Shown here: positions 20,231 to 33,883 of the stretch, piece after piece
Layout: every line of letters begins with the position of its first letter
How positions within the stretch are numbered: the first letter of the stretch is position 1
Origin: an uncultured bacterium
GTDB lineage: Bacteria > Bacillota_I > Bacilli_A > RFN20 > CAG-826
Assembly: GCA_949288485.1 (NCBI GenBank)
Contig: CASEKC010000001.1
Span: 230,241-294,240 of the forward strand
DNA: 64,000 bases
Direction of reading: 5' to 3'
Program-made: the position numbers and the translations under genes
The notes under the pieces: model-generated
Told to the model about the DNA's origin: nothing
The model's input: the letters and a program-made list of their open reading frames with translations, nothing else
The model's database searches: none

Positions 20231-21631
20231 TTAATGATCAGATTTAGAATTAGCATCTAACTCTTTAATCTCTTCTTTATATTTTTCTATTTCAGGAGTA
20301 TTAGCTAAAATCCAATGTCCTGGTAAAATTTCAACGAATCTAGGTTTTTCAACACTATAATCGTGAGATTCTTGAGGATTATAAGTGATTCTAACTCTAT
20401 TTTTTTCAGTTAATGGATTTGGTTTAGGAATTGCTGATAAAAGAGATTTTGTATATGGATGAAGAGGATGTTTAAACAATTCATCACTTGTAGCAAGTTC
20501 AACCATTTCTCCAAAATACATAACAGCAATCCTATCGCAGAAATATTTAACAACTGATAAATCGTGAGCAATAAAGAGTAAGGATAGTCCCATTTCTTCT
20601 TTTAAATCATTTAAAAGATTAATAATTTGAGCACGAATTGAAACGTCTAAAGCTGAAATAGGTTCATCACAAATTAAGAATTTTGGATTCATAACTAATG
20701 CTCTAGCAATACCAATTCTTTGTCTTTGACCGCCTGAGAATTCATGAGGATAACGATTGGTGTAATCTTCGATTAAACCAACTTTTTCCAAAGCTTCAAC
20801 GACTTTTTTGTGATTTTCAGCTCTATTATGATGACCTTGAATTTGTAAACCTTCTGAAATAATACTTTCAACTGTCATACGAGGATCAAGAGAATCGATT
20901 GGGTCTTGGAAAATCATTTGAATTTCTTGCATTAATTTTGGATCAACATGAGTATTATCATGCTTAATTTGTTTAATTTTAGCTTTTTGAACTTTAATAA
21001 TATTTTCGGCATACTCTTTAGCACTAGCAGCTTCTTTATCATGCTCTTCTTGGGAAATTTTACCGTTTTTTAAATCGGCTGCTAATTCCTTAAGTTTATT
21101 TTTAAGTCTAATCTTTGTGTACTTAATTTCTTTTTCATTCCATCTAGAACCAGCTCCAATTCTATATCCCTTATAATAAATTGAACCAGAAGTAATATTA
21201 TAAAGTCTAATAATTGAACGACCAGTTGTAGTTTTTCCACAGCCAGATTCACCAACTAAGCCAAAGCATTCTCCTTCATGAATTTGAAAAGATACATCGT
21301 GAACAGCTTTTAGTTTATATCTATTTGTACCTTTCCCGAAAAAGAAATATTGTTTTAAATGATTAACACTTAAAATAACATTATTATCAACATATTCCTG
21401 TTTAAATTTACACTTTTTCTTAATTTCCTCGATTTTTTCTTCATGAATTTCTTCATTCTTTTTTACATCATTATTTTCAAAAGAATGTTCATGTTCATCG
21501 TTATCATCATTAACTTTATCGATATTAACATTAGATTCTTGAATATCTTGATAAACATCTGGTTGATTAGCCAACAAAGTTTTTTTGGAGGATTCTAATT
21601 TCTCTTCATTAATTTTTCTTTTTTCTGACAT
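20231..21631 (-). CDS. oppF: Oligopeptide ABC transporter ATP-binding protein OppF
   Basis: ATPase of 466 residues pairing with OppD. It has Walker A GESGCGKTT (127-135), Q-loop MIFQDPIDSLDPRMTV, signature FSGGQRQR, Walker B FLICDEPISALDV, H-loop IAHDL and the Opp-type end HPLHPYTKSLLSAIP. An acidic, disordered-looking N-terminal extension of about 85 residues and a charged helical insertion (about 160-232, between Walker A and the Q-loop) make it longer than the usual 310-330. The ATG at 21631 has GGAGGG 8 bases upstream and starts one base after the oppD stop. The longer GTG start would be inferior. Confidence 0.93.
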   Translation of the reverse strand: MSEKRKINEEKLESSKKTLLANQPDVYQDIQESNVNIDKVNDDNDEHEHSFENNDVKKNEEIHEEKIEEIKKKCKFKQEYVDNNVILSVNHLKQYFFFGKGTNRYKLKAVHDVSFQIHEGECFGLVGESGCGKTTTGRSIIRLYNITSGSIYYKGYRIGAGSRWNEKEIKYTKIRLKNKLKELAADLKNGKISQEEHDKEAASAKEYAENIIKVQKAKIKQIKHDNTHVDPKLMQEIQMIFQDPIDSLDPRMTVESIISEGLQIQGHHNRAENHKKVVEALEKVGLIEDYTNRYPHEFSGGQRQRIGIARALVMNPKFLICDEPISALDVSIRAQIINLLNDLKEEMGLSLLFIAHDLSVVKYFCDRIAVMYFGEMVELATSDELFKHPLHPYTKSLLSAIPKPNPLTEKNRVRITYNPQESHDYSVEKPRFVEILPGHWILANTPEIEKYKEEIKELDANSKSDH

Positions 21632-21632
21632 A

Positions 21633-23603
21633 TTAAGCACCCTCCTTTACATTTTCTTCATGTGTTTTATTTAAGTTTTTTAAAAAATCATCGCTTTGAC
21701 CTTTTAAAGAGTTTTCAATACGAGTTTTAACAATTTTTGGCATTTCAACTTTAGGAGCACCAGGATAAAGTAACCATGTAGCGGCATAATGAGTATCACT
21801 AACCTTAAAGAATGGTGGTTCATATTTAAAATCAATAGCCATCGCATATTTACTTCTTAAAGCAAATGCATCACCTTTTGGTGGATATCTCATATCTGGT
21901 GGAGTACCGGGAATTGCTTCGAGTTTTTCTTTACTATCCACATCTGGAATTGATGAAAGCAATGCCCAAGTGTATGGATGTCGAGGATCAAAGAATACTT
22001 CATTAGCAGTTCCATATTCAACAATCTTACCAGCATACATAACAGCGACTCTATCAGCCATATTTGCAACAACGCCTAAATCGTGAGTAATAAAAATACA
22101 ACTTAAATTTCTACTTTTCTTTAACTTATTAATAAGTTCAAGAATTTGTGCTTGAATGGTAACGTCAAGAGCAGTCGTAGGTTCATCACAAATTAGAATA
22201 TCTGGATTAGCAGTTAACGCAATTGCAATAACAATTCTTTGTCTCATACCGCCAGAAAATTCAAATGGATATTGATTGAATCTTCTTTCTGGAAGAGGAA
22301 TGCCAACTTCTTTCATGACCTTTAAAGCCATTCTTTTTGCTTCTGCTTTAGTAATTTTTGTTTTATTTATATACTCTCTAGTTAAAATATCGATTTTACT
22401 TTGAACTTCTTTTTTAGATTTATATAAGTCATCGAGTTCTTTATTTCCAGAGGTTTCTTCGACCTTTTCTTCTTTTTTTGAAAGTTTGGATAAATTGATT
22501 TCTTGATTCTTTTTAGCTTTTTTTGCTAAATTTGTTTCTTTCTTTTCATTATCAATTATCTTGTTATATGCATCAACAATTTCTTGAGGTGCATTTGATA
22601 ATAAAACATTAATTTTATTATCAATCTCTAAAACCTCGTTTTCTAAAAGTGTCTTTTTTTCTACAAAATCATTCTCAAGTTCTCTAGCATAAACCTTGAT
22701 TTTAGCTTTTGCATTTTTCTTTGATTCACGAAGTGCACTTTTATATAAAGGTTTTAAAGTTTTAAAATTTAAATTAGAAAACTTTTTCTTCTCGCAATAA
22801 AATTTTTTAATTATATTTAAAGTCGAAATTTTGTCATCATCTTCTAAACTAAATTTAGATAAAAAAGAACTAACTAACTCAATTTTTTTATCTATTAATA
22901 TATTCTTTTTAGCTAAAATATCATATCTAAAATAAGTATTGTCAGAAGATTCAGAAAGTTCTTTATTATATTTTTCTTTACTTTCTTGATATTTTTTTGC
23001 TGAATCATTAATCAATCTATTTTGAGTTGAAATAAATTCACGTATATCAATAAATAATTTCTCTTTATCATCTTCCGACAGTTTTTTATTTTTAAATCTT
23101 TTTATCAATTTGTTTACATCATCAATATAAGAATTATAAACAGAATGCTCATAATTCTTATTAGCGATAGCATTACGATATTGAACTAATTCTTTTAAGA
23201 AATATTCATTATAAGTTCTTTTTAAAATATTTCTATTAATTAAAGTTGCTTCAGTTATTTGTTTACCAACTTTCATAATTGGATTTAATGAAGAAAGAGG
23301 GTCTTGGAAAATCATTCCTATTTTATGACCTCTAATTCTATGAAATTCTTCTTCACTAACTCTAACTAAATCTTCTCCTTCATAAAGAATTTGGCCACCT
23401 TCAATAATAGCATTGTTACTTAAAATTCCCATTACAGCTTTATTTGTAACAGATTTCCCACTACCTGATTCACCAACAATACAAAGGGTTTCTCCTTTAT
23501 AAAGATTAAAAGAAACACCACGAACAGCATGAACAATACCAGAATCAGCTTTAAAGCTAATTTTTAAGTTTTTTACACTTAATATTTTTTCTTTATTTTC
23601 CAT
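21633..23603 (-). CDS. oppD: Oligopeptide ABC transporter ATP-binding protein OppD with a large helical insertion
   Basis: ATPase of 656 residues, about twice the usual 335-360. Walker A GESGSGKS (44-51) and Q-loop IFQDPLSSLNPIM (98-110) are normal. A lysine/glutamate-rich, strongly helical stretch (about 125-415) interrupts the helical subdomain. The protein then resumes with EVGIPLPERR, FSGGMRQR (449-456), ICDEPTTALDV and ITHDLGVVA, and the Opp end HPYTWALLSSIPD. The reading frame is continuous, so this is a genuine insertion in an otherwise intact ATPase. It starts right after oppC. Confidence 0.92.
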   Translation of the reverse strand: MENKEKILSVKNLKISFKADSGIVHAVRGVSFNLYKGETLCIVGESGSGKSVTNKAVMGILSNNAIIEGGQILYEGEDLVRVSEEEFHRIRGHKIGMIFQDPLSSLNPIMKVGKQITEATLINRNILKRTYNEYFLKELVQYRNAIANKNYEHSVYNSYIDDVNKLIKRFKNKKLSEDDKEKLFIDIREFISTQNRLINDSAKKYQESKEKYNKELSESSDNTYFRYDILAKKNILIDKKIELVSSFLSKFSLEDDDKISTLNIIKKFYCEKKKFSNLNFKTLKPLYKSALRESKKNAKAKIKVYARELENDFVEKKTLLENEVLEIDNKINVLLSNAPQEIVDAYNKIIDNEKKETNLAKKAKKNQEINLSKLSKKEEKVEETSGNKELDDLYKSKKEVQSKIDILTREYINKTKITKAEAKRMALKVMKEVGIPLPERRFNQYPFEFSGGMRQRIVIAIALTANPDILICDEPTTALDVTIQAQILELINKLKKSRNLSCIFITHDLGVVANMADRVAVMYAGKIVEYGTANEVFFDPRHPYTWALLSSIPDVDSKEKLEAIPGTPPDMRYPPKGDAFALRSKYAMAIDFKYEPPFFKVSDTHYAATWLLYPGAPKVEMPKIVKTRIENSLKGQSDDFLKNLNKTHEENVKEGA

Positions 23604-23605
23604 AA

Positions 23606-25543
23606 CTATTCACTTCCTTTCAAGGATGGATTAAAGGCATCACGTAATCCATTACCAAATAAATTAAAACTAATCATCATAAGTGCAACAATTACTGAAG
23701 GCCATATAATTAAATATGGATAAGAGTTAATATACATTTGATTTTCTGAAAGTGTAACACCTAAAGATGGTAATCCTTGTAAACCTAAATTAAGATAGGA
23801 AATAGTTGCTTCATTAAAAATAACACTAGGAATAATTAAAACACAACTTGTAACAAGTGTACCAATGGAGTTTGGTAAAATATGTTTGAAAATAAGTCTG
23901 AAATCATTAGCGCCTAAAGTTCTAGCGGCTAAAACATATTCTCTTCCTTTAAACCTATAAAATTGAGATCTTGTTAATGATGAAACACCAATCCATCCGG
24001 TTAAACATAAAGCAAGAACGAATGTACCAAAGTTATTTCCTAAATGTAAAATACATAAAGTCATAACAACAATCCATGGGATTCCAGATAAGATATCAGT
24101 AAATCTTTCCATTACTATATCGATGTTTCCACCAAAATATCCAGAAATAGATCCCCAAATAATACCAAATGTAATACAAACTGCTGCAGTTCCTATACCT
24201 AAAAGTAAAGAAGTTCTTAAACCTGCAAAAATTGAATGTAACAAATCTTTTCCATAACGATCGGTACCTAACAAGTAAACAGGCATTGAATCATAACCAA
24301 GTTGACGATATTTAAGTACTTCGGCAGTTACAGAATAAACACCTAATCTTGTATCAAGTGTTTGAGAAATAACTTTTGTAACAGGACATTTATCTTCATT
24401 TAAAATAACAAAAGATTCAGGTCCTTTAGAAAAATCATAAGACATCCAGCCGTTTTGTATATATGTATTTAATTCTGTTTGTCCAATTACAACATTTGTA
24501 TGTCCAAACTTAGCTAAATAAGTATCATAAACAAAATTACATCTAACTAATGTTGAATCAAAGACACCTTTATTTCCTGTACAGTTCCAGTATCCAAGGT
24601 TTTCTTTTCCATTAGTAGATCTAGTTGTTCTAACCATTTTGTTTGCATCATCAAAGAAAATTTCATTTAAAGTTGATTGTTCTTCTTCGTTTGATGAAGT
24701 TAAAGTACAAGATTTAATTAAAATTTGTGTAGCGATGCCTTCTTCATAATCTAAAGTAAAAACAATTGAACAATTACTATAAGCTTTTTCTTCTAATCCA
24801 GCGTCAATAACAAAATCAGTTAAATTAAGAGAAAGATCTGAAAAATATTTACTATCTTCTCTTATTATTAATGTTTGTTGAACATTATCATCGTCTAAAT
24901 AAGTAAACGAAATATTATAATTTCCTAAAACATATGAATTAGCTGTGGTTTGATTGCCCATTTCAATATTCAATTGATAGTCGTTACTAAAATTTAATGT
25001 TGTAGGATAACTATTTAAAACCGAACTTGATGTTGAAGAAACAGAACTATAAAAATTAACATAACCACCAAATGCATAATCATTGACAGTGTTAATTTTT
25101 GTTTCTTTTAATTCTAAAGATCCATCGATAACAGCTTCTTTAGAAAAACCACCAGGAGTTTCATTTTTTGTATCATAAGCTATTTGGAAATTTTCATATT
25201 TTTTTGTGCCATCCCAGAAACCAGTTCCAGCAGGAAATAATTTTGGTTCTAAGAATTGTTCACTTAAATGTGGATTATCTATATCACTTGGCAAGGCCTC
25301 AGGTAAAATAATAGCTCCGAGAATTAAAATACCTAAAATAATACCACCTGCGACAGATGATTTATTTTTGCAAAATCTTTTAAAAGCGTCTTTTAAGAAA
25401 GTTGTAGGTTTGCTCTCGAATTTAACATCGTGAATTCGTTCATCCTTATTAACAATCTCAAAATCAGTTTTACTAATTTCAACTTGTTGATCATTATTAT
25501 TTGAATCTATATATTCAAATAATTCTTTTTTATTTTCTTCCAT
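23606..25543 (-). CDS. oppC: Oligopeptide ABC transporter permease OppC with a giant extracytoplasmic insertion
   Basis: Permease of 645 residues (usual length about 300-350). A polar cytoplasmic N-terminus leads to TM1 (about 64-82). Then come about 300 residues predicted outside the membrane, rich in Asn, Thr and Tyr and containing several cysteines. The canonical LLGTDRYGKDLLHSIFAGLR (from about 424) follows, then the remaining helices and the EAA loop AARTLGANDFRLIFKHILPN. The ATG at 25543 begins one base after the oppB stop, so I prefer it to an upstream in-frame start inside oppB. The insertion could be a substrate-receptor docking domain, but this is inferred. Confidence 0.92.
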   Translation of the reverse strand: MEENKKELFEYIDSNNNDQQVEISKTDFEIVNKDERIHDVKFESKPTTFLKDAFKRFCKNKSSVAGGIILGILILGAIILPEALPSDIDNPHLSEQFLEPKLFPAGTGFWDGTKKYENFQIAYDTKNETPGGFSKEAVIDGSLELKETKINTVNDYAFGGYVNFYSSVSSTSSSVLNSYPTTLNFSNDYQLNIEMGNQTTANSYVLGNYNISFTYLDDDNVQQTLIIREDSKYFSDLSLNLTDFVIDAGLEEKAYSNCSIVFTLDYEEGIATQILIKSCTLTSSNEEEQSTLNEIFFDDANKMVRTTRSTNGKENLGYWNCTGNKGVFDSTLVRCNFVYDTYLAKFGHTNVVIGQTELNTYIQNGWMSYDFSKGPESFVILNEDKCPVTKVISQTLDTRLGVYSVTAEVLKYRQLGYDSMPVYLLGTDRYGKDLLHSIFAGLRTSLLLGIGTAAVCITFGIIWGSISGYFGGNIDIVMERFTDILSGIPWIVVMTLCILHLGNNFGTFVLALCLTGWIGVSSLTRSQFYRFKGREYVLAARTLGANDFRLIFKHILPNSIGTLVTSCVLIIPSVIFNEATISYLNLGLQGLPSLGVTLSENQMYINSYPYLIIWPSVIVALMMISFNLFGNGLRDAFNPSLKGSE

Positions 25544-25544
25544 A

Positions 25545-26582
25545 CTATTTCTTTGCCCCCATTCTAATACGAGGATCGACAATACCATAACTTAAATCGA
25601 CAAGTAAATTAGCAGCCAATCCGATAAGAGTAAAAATAGCCATATCAACCATTAAAACATTGTAGTCTTTAGCGGTTAAAGCATCAGTAAACAATCTACC
25701 AATACCAGGTATTCCATATAAATTTTCTAGAATCATTGAACCAGATAAAATACCAATAAATTGTCCAATAATCATCGGAACAATCGGAACCATACTATTT
25801 CTTAAAGCGTGTCTAATAACACATTGTGTTTTTGTCAAGCCTTTAGTTCTTGCAAGTAAAAGGAAATCACTTGACATAATTTCGCAAAGTTCTGCTCTAG
25901 TATATCGAGTAAATCCAGCAATTGTACCAAAAGATAAGGCACAAACAGGAATAATAAATGCTTTTGCTTGTTCAGCAGCACTTGCTCCGGTTGATGGCCA
26001 TTGTGAAGGTAACCAACCTGTATTATAAGCAAGAATTAAAAGTAAGAAAGTAATTGTAATAAAACTTGGAATAGAAATCATAATCATAACTAAAGTAGAG
26101 ATGACATGATCTGTAAGTTTATTCTTTTTTAAAGCGGCAATGATACCGAATAAGAATCCCAATGGAACAGAAATAAAAATACTAATAACATTTAATTCCA
26201 TCGTAACCGGTAATCTTTCACCAATAATGGCAATAGCACTTGAATTTACACTGATTGATGTAGATGTACCCCAATCCCATCTAGTTACAACATTAACTAC
26301 AAAATTCCAATATTGAGTTAAAATTGGAGTTTGATAAATATAATGTGTGATATTGAATGTATCTTCATATTTATACAAATAATCACCTAAAGAAGGATTA
26401 ATTTCGGTTAATTCCATCATATATCCTAAATGAATTTGATCACGATAATAAGCTTGAACTTGTGCTGGGAAACCTGCAGGTGGAGTAGGTGGCAACATTT
26501 TCATTAAAATGAAAGTTAAGCTTAAAATGATAAAAGCCGTAAAGAATATTAAAATTACTCTCTTAAAGAAATAACTTTTCAT
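25545..26582 (-). CDS. oppB: Oligopeptide ABC transporter permease OppB
   Basis: Permease of 345 residues with six predicted transmembrane helices, near the normal length. N-terminal FKRVILIFFTAFIILSLTF and MKMLPPTPP are typical of OppB/DppB. The EAA loop ARTKGLTKTQCVIRHALRNS (about 240-259) and the NLYGIPGIGRLFTDA motif are present, and the end is VDLSYGIVDPRIR. A moderately long loop follows TM1. RBS GGAG lies before the ATG. It is the first gene after the oppA hairpin, in the order A-B-C-D-F. Confidence 0.95.
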   Translation of the reverse strand: MKSYFFKRVILIFFTAFIILSLTFILMKMLPPTPPAGFPAQVQAYYRDQIHLGYMMELTEINPSLGDYLYKYEDTFNITHYIYQTPILTQYWNFVVNVVTRWDWGTSTSISVNSSAIAIIGERLPVTMELNVISIFISVPLGFLFGIIAALKKNKLTDHVISTLVMIMISIPSFITITFLLLILAYNTGWLPSQWPSTGASAAEQAKAFIIPVCALSFGTIAGFTRYTRAELCEIMSSDFLLLARTKGLTKTQCVIRHALRNSMVPIVPMIIGQFIGILSGSMILENLYGIPGIGRLFTDALTAKDYNVLMVDMAIFTLIGLAANLLVDLSYGIVDPRIRMGAKK

Positions 26583-26718: not shown

Positions 26719-29463
26719 TTATTCATCAACATGTGAAGCATAATCTGCAACAGCAAATTGATAATATTGAGCTTTTAATGTTCCTTGTGCGGTAACAACA
26801 TCATATTCAAGATAAATACCAACAGCTCCGCTTCCATCAGTATAGGATGATAAGATATCGGCTGTAAATACTAAGTCTAATGGATTGTCACCAGCTGGAA
26901 GTCCATTTTCACTATCTGGATCATAAGAGTCAAAATAATCAACGTATGTAGATGGATTAAAGATTTCAATTCTTCTTAATTTCAACATTTCAATACCAGC
27001 ACCTTCTGTTGCAGTAATATGGAATGTATATTGAACTTTTTCAGCATCTTTAACTGTTTCATAGCTTAATGTAGAAGGAGCTACTTCAATACCATTAGAA
27101 TATAATCCACCTTGGTAACATGCTGTATAGAATGAATCGAATGAATAATATTTTCCATCCCATTCAATTTCATCAGTAACAACAGATGTATCAGGTCCCC
27201 AGTTTAAAGTAAATCCACTTCTACCATCAGAACACCAAATTTGTGTAAGACCTAATGGATTAAGTTCATAACCAGAAATAGCACCAAAGCCTAAATCGAA
27301 TTGACCTGTTTTAAGATCATCGTAGGTGTCTGTATAACTTGTTCCTGGAACAACGTGCTCAATTGCTAATTGATAACCATATTCTTTCCATGCTTCATTA
27401 GCTACTTCGCACATTGAAGTTGATGCTGGTTCGCCAAATTCTTTAATATTTGATTCACTTTGCCAAATACAAGTTAAAGTAATTGTAGTTGGATTATTTG
27501 GATCACCTTTAGCATATGTTCCTTTTGCAAGTTCTTCTTGCATTGCTCTCTTATAATAGATTAATGCGGCTTCTCTATTATAACCAAATGTTTCTGGATA
27601 CATATCAGCAATATTGTCTTGGTGTTCTTGAGTATCATTCCAAGTAACCATAGTTCCGTCAGCATTTTTTGTATATGCTTTATATGCAGATGAGAAATAG
27701 TTTAAAGTTGGAGTCATACCACTAGCTTCACCAATAGCTGTTCTATCCATTGAGAAGAATAATCCATTTAAGAAATTCTTGTTGGACATAATTGGTTTAA
27801 CATCCCAATAATCAGAAGCAGGAGTTTGTGCAACACTACCATTTACACCAAATAATTCTTCCCAAAGTTCTGGGGTTGTAGCATTAACGTTTAATTTCCA
27901 TGTTCCAGTATCTGGAATAGATTTAGTTCTTGGATCTGAAACATATTGATCAAGTTGAGTAACTGGAATTGAAACAGCATCAAGTTTTCCAGCCAAGAAT
28001 TCTTTGAATAATAATTCAGTATCAGTTTTAGCACCAACATAGATAGCGTAGAAAATACCATCTAATTTATACATATCTTCTTCTCCAGGAATAGATATAT
28101 AATCTTCATCTTTTGAGAATGCAATTCCTTTATCAGTTTCCCAGTGAGATAAGGTCCAAGGACCAATAGATAATGTATTATCAACAGGAGATAATGATCT
28201 ATCTGTTGACCATTTACCGTAATTTGTAACTCCAATTTCTTCGACTACTTCCATTGGTAAAGGTGAATAATATGGTAAACCTTGGAAAGCATCTCTGAAT
28301 CCAGCAGCATCAAATGCAGAAACAGTTTCAAAAATAATTGAATTATCGCTTTCGTCAACACTAATACCTACTCTACTAAATAAATCATCGTTATAACCAC
28401 CTTCTTTAGTAGCGTTAAAATAATCTTGAGCACCTTTTAAAAGTTGTGTATAACCATCGCCAGCCATTTCAGCACCACGATATAAACCATAACTTTGAGT
28501 TAAACCAAGTTTAATGTTTGTAAGATAATCTTCAAGTTCAACCGGTCTTCCATCCCAGTTTGAATTTCTTGAGCCGGCATAAGAATATTTTAAGCCATCT
28601 TCACCAGTTTTAACACGGACTTTAAATTTATGTCCTTGTCCATTTTCATCAGCATCAAGTACTTCTGGTAAAGCATCTTCAGCTGTTACAGGGTATAAAA
28701 CACCGCCGTTTTTATTTTCATTAAATTTATAAGACCATAATGGTAAAACTGTCATTGCTGCAAGGTTTGAAACTGATTCACCATCAGCATCCATAGCATA
28801 AATTTCAGCTGGATCTTCACTCATTCCAGAATGGAAGTATGAAGCATATTCATAATTTGAATCATATCCAGGTAAAACACCATCGACATCATAATAAGAA
28901 GTACCGCCAAATCCCATAATATCTGTATATGTTTCAACTGGCAAGACAGTACGTTCTGAGAACATTTGATATCCAGTATCAGCAACCATTGGGATACCAG
29001 TTAAAAATTCATCATAAGCATATTTTTCTTGAATACCTAAAAGTTGATTTTTAACTTCTGGAGATGATGTAGAAAGATTTACTAATCCACTGACTGCTTT
29101 ACCCATATCAACAACATTAGTAACTTCTAAATAAGCACTTGCACTCGAACCATTAGCTGCTGTAGCTGTAATAACAACAGTACCATCAGAAACACCTGTA
29201 ACAACACCGTTTGCATCAACAGTTGCAACCATAGGATCATTGCTTGCCCATGTCCAAGTAGTTTCACTTCCATCAGATAAAGAAGCGATTAAAGTAACAG
29301 TTTTTCCTTCTTCGACTTCAACATTGCCACCACTAATACTTGCAGTAGCTGTACTAACAACTGGTTCATCTGTAGGATTACATGATGTAAGGCTATAAAT
29401 ACCTAAACCTCCTAATGTAACGAGACAAGATAAAGCCAATACATTTAGTTTTTTGTTTTTCAT
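26719..29463 (-). CDS. oppA: Oligopeptide-binding lipoprotein OppA with N-terminal Big_2 domain
   Basis: Extracellular solute-binding protein of 914 residues. A lipoprotein signal ends in YSLTSC (lipid-anchored Cys28). A bacterial Ig-like Big_2 domain follows (about 40-117: VEVEEGKTVTLIA, WASNDPMVATVDANGVVTGVSDGTVVITA), then a family 5 binding domain with PWTLSHWET and KNFLNGLFFSMDR, and a beta-rich C-terminal extension. OppA proteins are usually about 540-600 residues, so this is unusually large. The Ig-like module probably acts as a spacer on the cell surface. RBS GGGAGG precedes the ATG. Confidence 0.92.
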   Translation of the reverse strand: MKNKKLNVLALSCLVTLGGLGIYSLTSCNPTDEPVVSTATASISGGNVEVEEGKTVTLIASLSDGSETTWTWASNDPMVATVDANGVVTGVSDGTVVITATAANGSSASAYLEVTNVVDMGKAVSGLVNLSTSSPEVKNQLLGIQEKYAYDEFLTGIPMVADTGYQMFSERTVLPVETYTDIMGFGGTSYYDVDGVLPGYDSNYEYASYFHSGMSEDPAEIYAMDADGESVSNLAAMTVLPLWSYKFNENKNGGVLYPVTAEDALPEVLDADENGQGHKFKVRVKTGEDGLKYSYAGSRNSNWDGRPVELEDYLTNIKLGLTQSYGLYRGAEMAGDGYTQLLKGAQDYFNATKEGGYNDDLFSRVGISVDESDNSIIFETVSAFDAAGFRDAFQGLPYYSPLPMEVVEEIGVTNYGKWSTDRSLSPVDNTLSIGPWTLSHWETDKGIAFSKDEDYISIPGEEDMYKLDGIFYAIYVGAKTDTELLFKEFLAGKLDAVSIPVTQLDQYVSDPRTKSIPDTGTWKLNVNATTPELWEELFGVNGSVAQTPASDYWDVKPIMSNKNFLNGLFFSMDRTAIGEASGMTPTLNYFSSAYKAYTKNADGTMVTWNDTQEHQDNIADMYPETFGYNREAALIYYKRAMQEELAKGTYAKGDPNNPTTITLTCIWQSESNIKEFGEPASTSMCEVANEAWKEYGYQLAIEHVVPGTSYTDTYDDLKTGQFDLGFGAISGYELNPLGLTQIWCSDGRSGFTLNWGPDTSVVTDEIEWDGKYYSFDSFYTACYQGGLYSNGIEVAPSTLSYETVKDAEKVQYTFHITATEGAGIEMLKLRRIEIFNPSTYVDYFDSYDPDSENGLPAGDNPLDLVFTADILSSYTDGSGAVGIYLEYDVVTAQGTLKAQYYQFAVADYASHVDE

Positions 29464-30193: not shown

Positions 30194-33100
30194 TTATTCG
30201 ACCTTACCAGAATTTTTTTTACGTAAAATAAAGATAATTGCAGGAATAAGTACTAACAAAACAATTATTATACAAACACCAATAATTAAATAAATTAGTT
30301 CATTAGAAACTTTATAATTTTTTTCTCCTCTATTAAGCAAAAAGTTTTCATCAACACTTTTAATAAATAAAGACGATCCATTTTTAAATGTTTCTAATTC
30401 TTTTTCCTCCGGGAAAGTATATGCTTTCGAAGTTGCATTTTCATATCCTTCTCCCAAATTAATAACTAAATCTCCTCCTCCGTTATATTTAGTTAATCTG
30501 CCATTTAAAGAGACTAAAGATATTTTAACATTAGTTGTATTTGCTAATTTTGTATATAAGGATTCATCTAATTTTAAAAAACTTGTCGTATTAGCTTCGC
30601 TAGCAAATAATATTGCATCGAAATCACGAGTTATATTTCCATATGTATAAGAATAAGATGTTGAAACAATATAAACATATGGTTCCAATAATAATTCAAA
30701 TGGAGATAAATTTTCTATAGAAATAGTATATTTATATGTTCCATCTTCTAATAATTTTTCTTTTGCTAAAACATTAGCAAAAGTAATATTTGCCATTTTC
30801 TCATCAAAATAAAGTACCAATTCTTTATTAGTTAAAACACAATTATCTATATCCAATGTTTTGACTTCGCTACTTATCTCTAATACATATTCTTTTACTT
30901 GAGTATAACCACCAGAAAGATGATATTCAAATTTTAAAGAATAAATTCCATCTTCATAATAACCATTTTCTTCATCTTTTAATGGAATAATTGTGTAAGC
31001 CCTATCAGCAATAAATCCTTCATTAAATAAAGTTGTTGTAGCTTTTGTTTTATATAAATAAGTATCGTTACTATCACCTGTTGAATGGAGAGCACTAAAC
31101 ATATGATCAGTTAAAACAACTTCACCTTCGCTATTTGTTAAAGTAATTGTATTAGATTCAACACTTCTATTAACAAATTGTTGAATATATAAAGTTGAAG
31201 CACTTCCTTTAGCTCCGGCATAAAGATGGTATTTTCCATCACTTTCATTATATTCACTAATTATAGGAGTATAAATTTTAGCTGGATCAGCATTATTATA
31301 TAAAACATCAGTAACATCAAAATTTTCAAAATCTGTTCCGCTTACTCCAATTAAAGAATTAAAGTTTGCATTTGGTTTATTGATTCCGGTAACTTCAGCT
31401 AAATTATTTAATACATCTGATTGATATATTTTCTCGTTATCTCTTTCAAAAGTAAAATCTTCAACAGCATCACCTTTTGAATAATTGCCAAAGAAACCTA
31501 AATAAGGAATTGAAAGATCATTTAAAGAAGCGCTTTCACTTTCAAATAAAACATAACCTTCAATATATGTTCCGTTTTCAAAAGTAGAATTTAATTCATT
31601 TTTAATAGAATCTTCAAGTTCATAATTGATATTTATAACTTGTTCTTCTTCACCATTTAAAGAAACATTAAATGTATATTCATCAACTAAAACATCATTT
31701 ATTGTTTGAAATTTTATATCTTTAAATTCTGGAGACATTTCTCCATCAATATATTTAGTTTCAGGAACTTGCACTAATAATGTAGCTTTATAATTTCCTT
31801 TTAGTTTTTCTTCATTATGAATAGTTACATTAAAATCGATTATTCCTGAAGAAATATCTTCGTTATTTTTAAGTTCTGCTTTTGCACTTTCTTTATTGCT
31901 TCCTGTTAAATAAATCGAAGAAGAAATTGTATTTGAAACATCAATTAAACCAGCTCCTTGTCTTCTTGGAGAAACCATTGCTCCATTTGATTGTTTTAAA
32001 ACTTGAGCCGTTGACATTTCTCTTGCTCTTAAAGTTTTTTGATATTCTTTTCTTTCTTCATCAGTAGAAAAATCATTTTCACTTAAAATTAATGCGCTTG
32101 CCCCTGAATAATTTGGTGCAGCCATTGATGTTCCACTTAAATATTGATAAGTATTATTACTTTTTTGATTTCTAGAATTTAAAGAAACAGCACCAGCAAT
32201 ATTTTGACCAGGAGCACTAATTTCAATAGCCATACTTAAATCAGCTAAAGTACCATTACTTGAAAAACTAGAAATTTGATTTCTACTAATTGTTAAAACT
32301 TTTTTTGTCGCACTTTCTAAAATGTCATAATCTTCACTACTTATCGAATAAGCAGGAATTAACTCATCTTTAGAAGAGTTAGTTAAATCAAAATAACCTA
32401 AAGAACCTAAGTTATCTTGATTAGCAATAATTACGGCAACAGCTCCTTTTTCTTTTGCATGTTTAATTTTTTCTGAAAAAGTATTACTGCCTCTTTTTAT
32501 AACAGCAATTTTACCTTTTACATCGATATTTTCATAATCATTTCCTAATTTTTCACCAGTTTCATTATCTATATCATTTATAGCTCCTACCCCTGGAACT
32601 AAAACATATTCATAAGCTGCACTTTCTTCATCTTCATCAATTAAAGTAGTAAAAGGTAAAATAGCAGCTGGATCATCACTTATTCCATCATTATCTATAT
32701 CTCCTCTTGCACTTAATTGATCTCTTCCTCCTATTGTATTTCCTTCAACACTAAGTTCTGGAGTTACTTCATCATCATCTATTAAATTAGCACTAGCTAC
32801 TCCTACTCCACCATTATTTCCTAAATATGAGCCTAAAGTACCTTCTTCAACACTATCTAAAGTATCATACATATAAGCTCCACTATTTTGCCAAGTAGCT
32901 TTACCTTCATTTCCGGCGGCTAAAGAAACAATTACTCCTTCATCAGCTAATTTTTTAATTGCTTTATAAGATGCACTTTCATCTTCAAATTCATTTAAAT
33001 CTGCTCCTAAAGAAAGATTAACAACATCTGCCCCAATTTTATAAGCATCATTCAAAGCTTTTAAAACCATTGAATCAAAACAATATTGAGTATTTCCACT

Positions 33101-33883
33101 ATCTCCAAAAACTTTCATAAAAGCTAGTTGAGAAGAAGGGGCAACTCCTTTAAATTCTCCATTAGCACTAGCTATAGAAGAAACATGCATTCCATGAGTG
33201 CTATTAAGTGAAAAAACATCATCATCTTCTTTAGTTGTTTCATTATCTAAATTAGTTATTGTTCCTCCATAATCATGATAAAAAGGAATTTTACGATTAT
33301 AATAAAAATCTTCTTGATTAGTCGCATCTAAACTCGACACTAAAGAATCAACTTTTTCTTCACTTAATTTAATATCTATAGAAGGATCTAAATCTTTAAA
33401 AGATTCATGTTCTAAATTAAAAGATGAATCTAATATAGCAATTAATGTTCCTTCTCCTTCATTAGAAGTAGAAGGAACATTCATTCTTTCTAAAGAATTA
33501 TTTTCTAATGGAGTCGTAAATATTTTTAAAGGATCATAATATTCATTTTCTTTATTAATATTATTAATAAAATAAGCTTTATTTTCATGAATACTATCAA
33601 CACTTTTTAAAGAAGGTAAAACATCTAAAAACGAATAGTTAACATTTAATAAAACTCCATTAACTAAACCTTTATATGTATCTTTAATTAAATATTCATC
33701 GCTATAAATATTTATTTCATTTTTAAAATCATTTAAAGAAAATCCATCATTAAATAAGACGATAACTTCTTTATCTTTAATAGCTAAATCATTAAAACTT
33801 GAATATTTAGAAGATATTGAAGTTGATGTAAGTAAAGCTAAAAGAGAAAAGGAAAATATAAAAGATATCTTTTTAAATTTCAT
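30194..33883 (-). CDS. Membrane-anchored S8 subtilase (lactocepin/C5a-peptidase-like)
   Basis: Extracellular serine protease of 1229 residues. A signal peptide (1-24) leads to the catalytic triad: Asp152 (AILDSSF), His230 (STHGMHVSS) and Ser586 (SGTSMAAP). A PA domain is inserted between His and Ser (about 395-545, VKGKIAVIKRGSNTFSEKI). Fn3-like and beta-sandwich modules follow, then a C-terminal transmembrane helix (about 1197-1218) and a short basic tail. There is no LPXTG motif, so anchoring is by the helix. It likely cuts extracellular proteins into peptides for the nearby Opp importer. GGAGAAG precedes the ATG. Confidence 0.92.
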   Translation of the reverse strand: MKFKKISFIFSFSLLALLTSTSISSKYSSFNDLAIKDKEVIVLFNDGFSLNDFKNEINIYSDEYLIKDTYKGLVNGVLLNVNYSFLDVLPSLKSVDSIHENKAYFINNINKENEYYDPLKIFTTPLENNSLERMNVPSTSNEGEGTLIAILDSSFNLEHESFKDLDPSIDIKLSEEKVDSLVSSLDATNQEDFYYNRKIPFYHDYGGTITNLDNETTKEDDDVFSLNSTHGMHVSSIASANGEFKGVAPSSQLAFMKVFGDSGNTQYCFDSMVLKALNDAYKIGADVVNLSLGADLNEFEDESASYKAIKKLADEGVIVSLAAGNEGKATWQNSGAYMYDTLDSVEEGTLGSYLGNNGGVGVASANLIDDDEVTPELSVEGNTIGGRDQLSARGDIDNDGISDDPAAILPFTTLIDEDEESAAYEYVLVPGVGAINDIDNETGEKLGNDYENIDVKGKIAVIKRGSNTFSEKIKHAKEKGAVAVIIANQDNLGSLGYFDLTNSSKDELIPAYSISSEDYDILESATKKVLTISRNQISSFSSNGTLADLSMAIEISAPGQNIAGAVSLNSRNQKSNNTYQYLSGTSMAAPNYSGASALILSENDFSTDEERKEYQKTLRAREMSTAQVLKQSNGAMVSPRRQGAGLIDVSNTISSSIYLTGSNKESAKAELKNNEDISSGIIDFNVTIHNEEKLKGNYKATLLVQVPETKYIDGEMSPEFKDIKFQTINDVLVDEYTFNVSLNGEEEQVININYELEDSIKNELNSTFENGTYIEGYVLFESESASLNDLSIPYLGFFGNYSKGDAVEDFTFERDNEKIYQSDVLNNLAEVTGINKPNANFNSLIGVSGTDFENFDVTDVLYNNADPAKIYTPIISEYNESDGKYHLYAGAKGSASTLYIQQFVNRSVESNTITLTNSEGEVVLTDHMFSALHSTGDSNDTYLYKTKATTTLFNEGFIADRAYTIIPLKDEENGYYEDGIYSLKFEYHLSGGYTQVKEYVLEISSEVKTLDIDNCVLTNKELVLYFDEKMANITFANVLAKEKLLEDGTYKYTISIENLSPFELLLEPYVYIVSTSYSYTYGNITRDFDAILFASEANTTSFLKLDESLYTKLANTTNVKISLVSLNGRLTKYNGGGDLVINLGEGYENATSKAYTFPEEKELETFKNGSSLFIKSVDENFLLNRGEKNYKVSNELIYLIIGVCIIIVLLVLIPAIIFILRKKNSGKVE

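Follow-up and report, generated by a model that had tools for sequence, protein, structure and literature searches.

A large insert in the TM1–TM2 loop of an OppC-type permease of uncultured Bacilli and its possible part in docking an enlarged OppA

In the 64,000-nucleotide stretch of DNA analysed here (the window), the OppC-type permease of an oligopeptide importer carries a large insert between its first and second transmembrane segments (TM1 and TM2). The insert has a defined place in the protein, is conserved among relatives, lies in an opp operon and occurs together with a large binding protein, OppA. On balance, it is probably an extracytoplasmic accessory domain of OppC that would form part of a docking platform for the enlarged lipoprotein OppA. 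From these observations, we infer that the insert contacts OppA and has a mechanical role in the importer.

The gene order oppABCDF is present at the window locus, as listed below. OppC residues are counted from the start at 25543, as in the initial annotation; the choice of an in-frame ATG at 25588 would lengthen the protein by 15 aa.

20231 to 21640, reverse strand: oppF, ATPase of 469 aa (NCBIfam)
21633 to 23603, reverse strand: oppD, ATPase of 656 aa with a charged insert (NCBIfam MMSYN1_0167)
23606 to 25543, reverse strand: oppC, permease of 645 aa with a large TM1–TM2 loop (OppC_N and BPD_transp_1; best NCBIfam model Opp3C)
25545 to 26582, reverse strand: oppB, 345 aa, TM1–TM2 loop of 93 residues versus 62–65 in ordinary OppB
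26719 to 29463, reverse strand: oppA, binding protein of 914 aa with an N-terminal Big_2 domain (Pfam)

The window OppC is the single match to the OppC query in its 1.36-Mb genome, and its closest named relative comes from an uncultured Bacilli bacterium (80% identity). Pfam places OppC_N at residues 48–97 (37.4 bits versus a cut-off of 23.9) and BPD_transp_1 at residues 460–642 (97.3 bits versus 26.4), with no Pfam domain between them. Opp3C is the best C-subunit NCBIfam model at 263 bits, and since the equivalog cut-off of 450 bits is not reached, the protein is, as judged by profile, an OppC-type permease and not Opp3C in the strict sense. The best NCBIfam models of OppD and OppF are the minimal-cell Opp families MMSYN1_0167 and MMSYN1_0168; OppD has a long charged insert downstream of the Walker A region, OppF has an N-terminal extension and an insert, and at locus L051 a 1126-aa open reading frame spans OppD. 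The Big_2 domain of OppA is an Ig-like domain at the N-terminus, and the SBP_bac_5 match covers only part of the protein. At 30194–33883, the window also encodes a membrane-anchored S8 subtilase with a PA domain, which could supply the importer with peptides.

Within OppC, the following parts can be distinguished.

25280 to 25366, reverse strand: TM1, residues 60–88 (hydropathy scan; OppC_N spans 48–97)
25205 to 25279, reverse strand: retained N-terminal half of the ordinary loop, residues 89–113, LEPKLFPAGTGFWDGT (N-flank profile)
24320 to 25204, reverse strand: insert, about residues 114–408 (profiles, loop comparison, dN/dS)
24590 to 25204, reverse strand: middle of the insert, residues 114–318, most variable, with low-confidence predicted strands (profiles, models)
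24320 to 24589, reverse strand: C-terminal part of the insert, residues 319–408, better conserved (pLDDT; present in L087)
24245 to 24319, reverse strand: retained C-terminal loop half and LLGTDRYGKD, residues 409–433 (comparison with ordinary loops)
23609 to 24277, reverse strand: permease core, residues 423–645 (Pfam; closest solved chains OppC 8z21 and DppC 8z1v)

The initial annotation had placed the end of TM1 near residue 82 and a canonical motif near 424, with a large gap between TM1 and TM2. This holds: hydropathy puts TM1 at residues 60–88, LLGTDRYGKDLL starts at residue 424, where LLGTD lies, and about 343 residues lead from TM1 to TM2. Its figure of about 40–50 residues for an ordinary gap was about right, as ordinary OppC loops have 20–57 residues by the same measurement, which covered this class and two plasmid records, from Bacillus badius and Pediococcus acidilactici. 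Several ordinary loops are of the form LPPRIPGLEKLGIFNGT...VYEQRGLDEVYYFFGTD, and the window OppC retains both half-motifs, LEPKLFPAGTGFWDGT ... EVLKYRQLGYDSMPVYLLGTD, with about 295 residues (114–408) standing between them. In sequence terms, the ordinary loop is split by the insert, not replaced. The N-flank profile matches ordinary 50-residue loops too (L129, E 2e-7; L117, E 1e-4), and the remainder of the insert outside this flank gave no profile match to ordinary loops. In L087, a close relative, the loop has 146 residues, the middle of the insert is absent and the C-terminal part is present. Because the conserved ordinary loop is split and this close relative is without the middle, the comparison supports a separate unit set into a permease loop; the proposal of a domain fused into the permease therefore stands as an insertion and falls as an end-to-end fusion.

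Of the 147 genomes of the order, 139 have an OppC homologue. In the class, the profile of the insert found matches in 57 of 296 sampled genomes and in 28 of 165 genera. A tree of the OppC core (n = 119) places the window inside a well-supported clade of 46 members with large inserts, of which L087 is the sole shortened one. The insert sits in a conserved oppABCDF operon at the loci read, and no relative of it was found in the viral contigs searched. In 58 genomes of the order, OppC is the sole protein with the middle of the insert, two marginal matches aside. Against two close relatives, insert residues 114–404 gave dN/dS values of 0.25 and 0.17, versus 0.05 and 0.04 for the OppC core; the insert is constrained, yet its rate is 4–5 times that of the core, a pattern that a surface for a specific protein contact might show. 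By these sequence measures, the insert is real, old and selected.

Confident structure prediction is confined to the C-terminal end of the insert. AlphaFold was run on full-length OppC and on the insert with three sequences in the input, and mean pLDDT across the two models was 35 and 44. Residues 348–411 form a compact alpha/beta unit that is modelled confidently (pLDDT about 76–86 in the full-length model and 82–93 in the insert model). Strands are drawn through residues 181–279 in both models at pLDDT of about 30–50, which lends weak support to the earlier description of the insert as beta-rich. The prediction and fold search that had been proposed as a check brought no significant Foldseek match (E ≤ 0.001) with these mostly low-confidence models. 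At the sequence level, neither the insert by itself nor a profile built from 30 sequences had a hit in the PDB. The Pfam scan of 30 inserts returned no shared family, only scattered single weak matches. The models predict a stable fold for about 65 residues, with low confidence for the rest, and the lack of a fold match does not make the insert a new fold; the idea of a receptor-like domain finds no support in Pfam, PDB or fold searches. The loop does contain several cysteines, as had been noted (258, 279, 321, 335 and 386). A disulphide between C335 and C386 was considered and rejected, as the two do not co-occur across 58 relatives (Fisher p 0.73) and there is no sign of a conserved bond.

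The size of OppA provides a second line of evidence. Ordinary OppA proteins in this class have about 510–595 aa. Over 102 operons (L105 was left in as one row with an OppC insert), OppA reaches 600 aa or more in 64 of 72 operons with an insert in either subunit, versus 5 of 30 without; an earlier, smaller count of 50/50 versus 1/13 weakened as loci were added. Loop size and OppA length correlate over the same operons with a Spearman coefficient of 0.73 when kinship is ignored, and as operons are related by descent, this raw value overstates the link. With independent contrasts, r is 0.26 (p 0.008), and the link found no support when presence and absence were compared in pairs on the tree. In effect, the expectation that insert and enlarged OppA would go together in relatives is borne out in the raw counts and weakly after correction for kinship, so that the association is suggestive only. 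When operons with a large OppB loop are set aside (93 remain), the median OppA length is 549 aa for OppC loops below 80 residues, 590 aa for 80–140, 851 aa for 140–260, 903 aa for 260–440 and 968 aa above that. In G178, which has three operons, ordinary loops accompany an OppA of 540 aa, an OppB loop of 242 residues one of 674 aa, and an OppC loop of 176 residues one of 647 aa. Exceptions that speak against docking exist in both directions: OppA still has 864 aa in L087, the five large OppA proteins of insert-free operons have 693–883 aa, and some inserts of 82–136 residues are paired with an OppA of only 569–598 aa.

A different explanation is unlikely: the loop may simply tolerate expansion, with inserted domains that drift in size and do little, in lineages whose transporter proteins are generally enlarged. 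OppA, OppD and OppF of insert operons are indeed enlarged as well, OppC loops range from about 100 to 840 residues with unrelated sequences, and the OppA link is weak after kinship correction. On the other side, the dN/dS of 0.17–0.25 and the conserved C-terminal part with its confident predicted fold argue for selection, and the insert is maintained across many genera.

A further hint comes from divergence. The divergence of the insert tends to follow that of OppA and OppB and not that of cytoplasmic OppF (partial r 0.22, 0.19 and -0.08; p 0.07, 0.10 and 0.72), a non-significant lean of the kind expected for contact on the outside. In noisy global alignments, the main extra part of OppA in the window clade aligns near residues 137–140 of ordinary OppA, and that of an OppA from an OppB-insert operon lies at a like position, also near 137–140. 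These alignments give no support to the idea that an enlarged OppC goes with OppA insertions placed in lobe 2.

A large extracellular part of an oligopeptide permease subunit has been described before. Pneumococcal AmiC, an OppB-type subunit and the nearest case on record, has the ectodomains ECD1 and ECD2 (residues 31–278), which could clamp the binding protein according to an AlphaFold model (PMC11192437). AmiC and the window OppC share a large extracellular part near TM1; in AmiC, however, it belongs to the OppB-type subunit, whereas the window insert lies in OppC, beside an OppB with a loop of 93 residues. Compared with seven AmiC-like OppB loops of this class (238–327 residues; AmiC itself not included), the insert gave an hhalign probability of 0. 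By the tests run, it falls outside the AmiC ectodomain family, being in the wrong subunit and without recognizable sequence kinship to AmiC-like loops. Should OppA docking be its role, it would work like those ectodomains.

MalF is part of a sugar transporter, and its P2, a large periplasmic loop in a type I importer permease like the insert, is a different loop from OppC TM1–TM2. As to the P2 fold, Foldseek with the mostly low-confidence insert models found no significant match. In the E. coli maltose importer, P2 interacts with MalE according to titles cited in PMC3328499. The scoop of E. coli DppB enters the binding-protein cleft between the lobes, and efficient uptake depends on it (PMC12136057); it is likewise a permease loop engaging a binding protein, but it has about 30 residues, belongs to the B subunit and enters the cleft. 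A targeted literature search that included few subscription journals found no described OppC ectodomain. A segment widespread and already described in OppC had been named as a refuting outcome; the insert is widespread in the class, and a comparable ectodomain has been published for AmiC (PMC11192437).

A counterpart in position is the TM1–TM2 coil of AmiD, an OppC-type subunit, whose residues 64–99 touch lobe 2 of the binding protein in an AlphaFold model (PMC11192437). It is the same loop in the same subunit type, although it spans about 36 residues and contains no domain. A domain in this loop would lie on the side of the AmiD contact with lobe 2, and OppA docking, as suggested initially, therefore appears to be the best explanation and the most likely role, with the enlarged OppA and the divergence trend as indirect evidence. 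In such a mechanism, the insert would extend from the short OppC loop on that side and widen the contact with OppA; the wider contact may hold or orient OppA beside the translocation path while the OppB scoop enters its cleft. If this is true, docking ectodomains on permeases are not confined to AmiC or MalF, and one may reside in the opposite permease subunit with an unrelated sequence.

The insert could also be a docking site for some other partner, such as a surface protease feeding peptides to the transporter, but this is improbable. The gene of the S8 protease (30194–33883) adjoins oppA in the window and in L031; a catalytic-motif search of the longer loci found the protease at those two loci only, whereas the insert is widespread.

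Inserts of this loop are diverse. In profile comparisons, they fall into groups with only the ordinary flank in common: window-type inserts include loops of about 320–620 residues, a second type has about 140–240 residues with a version of 530–560, and further types exist. RCC1-like beta-propellers (Pfam RCC1_2, E 3e-12 to 3e-36) occupy the TM1–TM2 loop in eight OppC proteins that represent another paralogue and come from five families in the class, that of the window among them; sister operons combine an ordinary OppC with a large OppB loop of 238–327 residues, as in AmiC.

L046, 6518 to 8563: OppC with RCC1-like propeller
L107, 6548 to 8545: OppC with RCC1-like propeller
L108, 7745 to 9565: OppC with RCC1-like propeller
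L109, 5857 to 9291: OppC with RCC1-like propeller
L137, 6058 to 7911: OppC with RCC1-like propeller
L138, 6939 to 8816: OppC with RCC1-like propeller
L139, 6202 to 8085: OppC with RCC1-like propeller
L140, 6308 to 8101: OppC with RCC1-like propeller
L047, 6283 to 8031, and L120, L159, L161, L162, L168 and L176: AmiC-like OppB with ordinary OppC and an OppA of 657–743 aa

The large OppB loops resemble one another and not the OppC inserts. The propellers occupy the same OppC loop as the window insert and are of similar size, but they have another fold and belong to another OppC paralogue; the two show no profile similarity, and no RCC1 match occurs in the 30 inserts. A literature search that included few subscription journals found no account of RCC1 repeats in a permease. 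Such propellers are common binding scaffolds, and the low-confidence strands in the middle of the window insert could represent a beta-sandwich. Both points would suit a domain that binds ligands close to the pore (peptides, glycans or cell wall), concentrating substrate or anchoring the transporter. This is quite unlikely for the window insert, given that 30 members match no carbohydrate- or peptide-binding family in Pfam, no PDB or fold match was obtained and the middle of the insert is specific to OppC.

A broader view is tentative. In this class, the OppC TM1–TM2 loop may act as a hot spot for insertions, receiving unrelated ectodomains (the window type, the second type and RCC1-like propellers) at one point between two retained half-motifs. 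OppB would carry the domain in sister operons, and the binding protein would be remodelled to match. The result would be a modular layer for docking, added to peptide importers that are otherwise standard. Several unrelated inserts in one loop, found in uncultured, small-genome Bacilli, are natural variants for testing binding-protein docking in type I importers.

At L105 (7597–9117), Pfam places OppC_N at residues 230–282. The stretch of about 230 residues ahead of it is therefore probably an extension of the N-terminus and not an insert; the adjacent OppB is enlarged to 476 aa.
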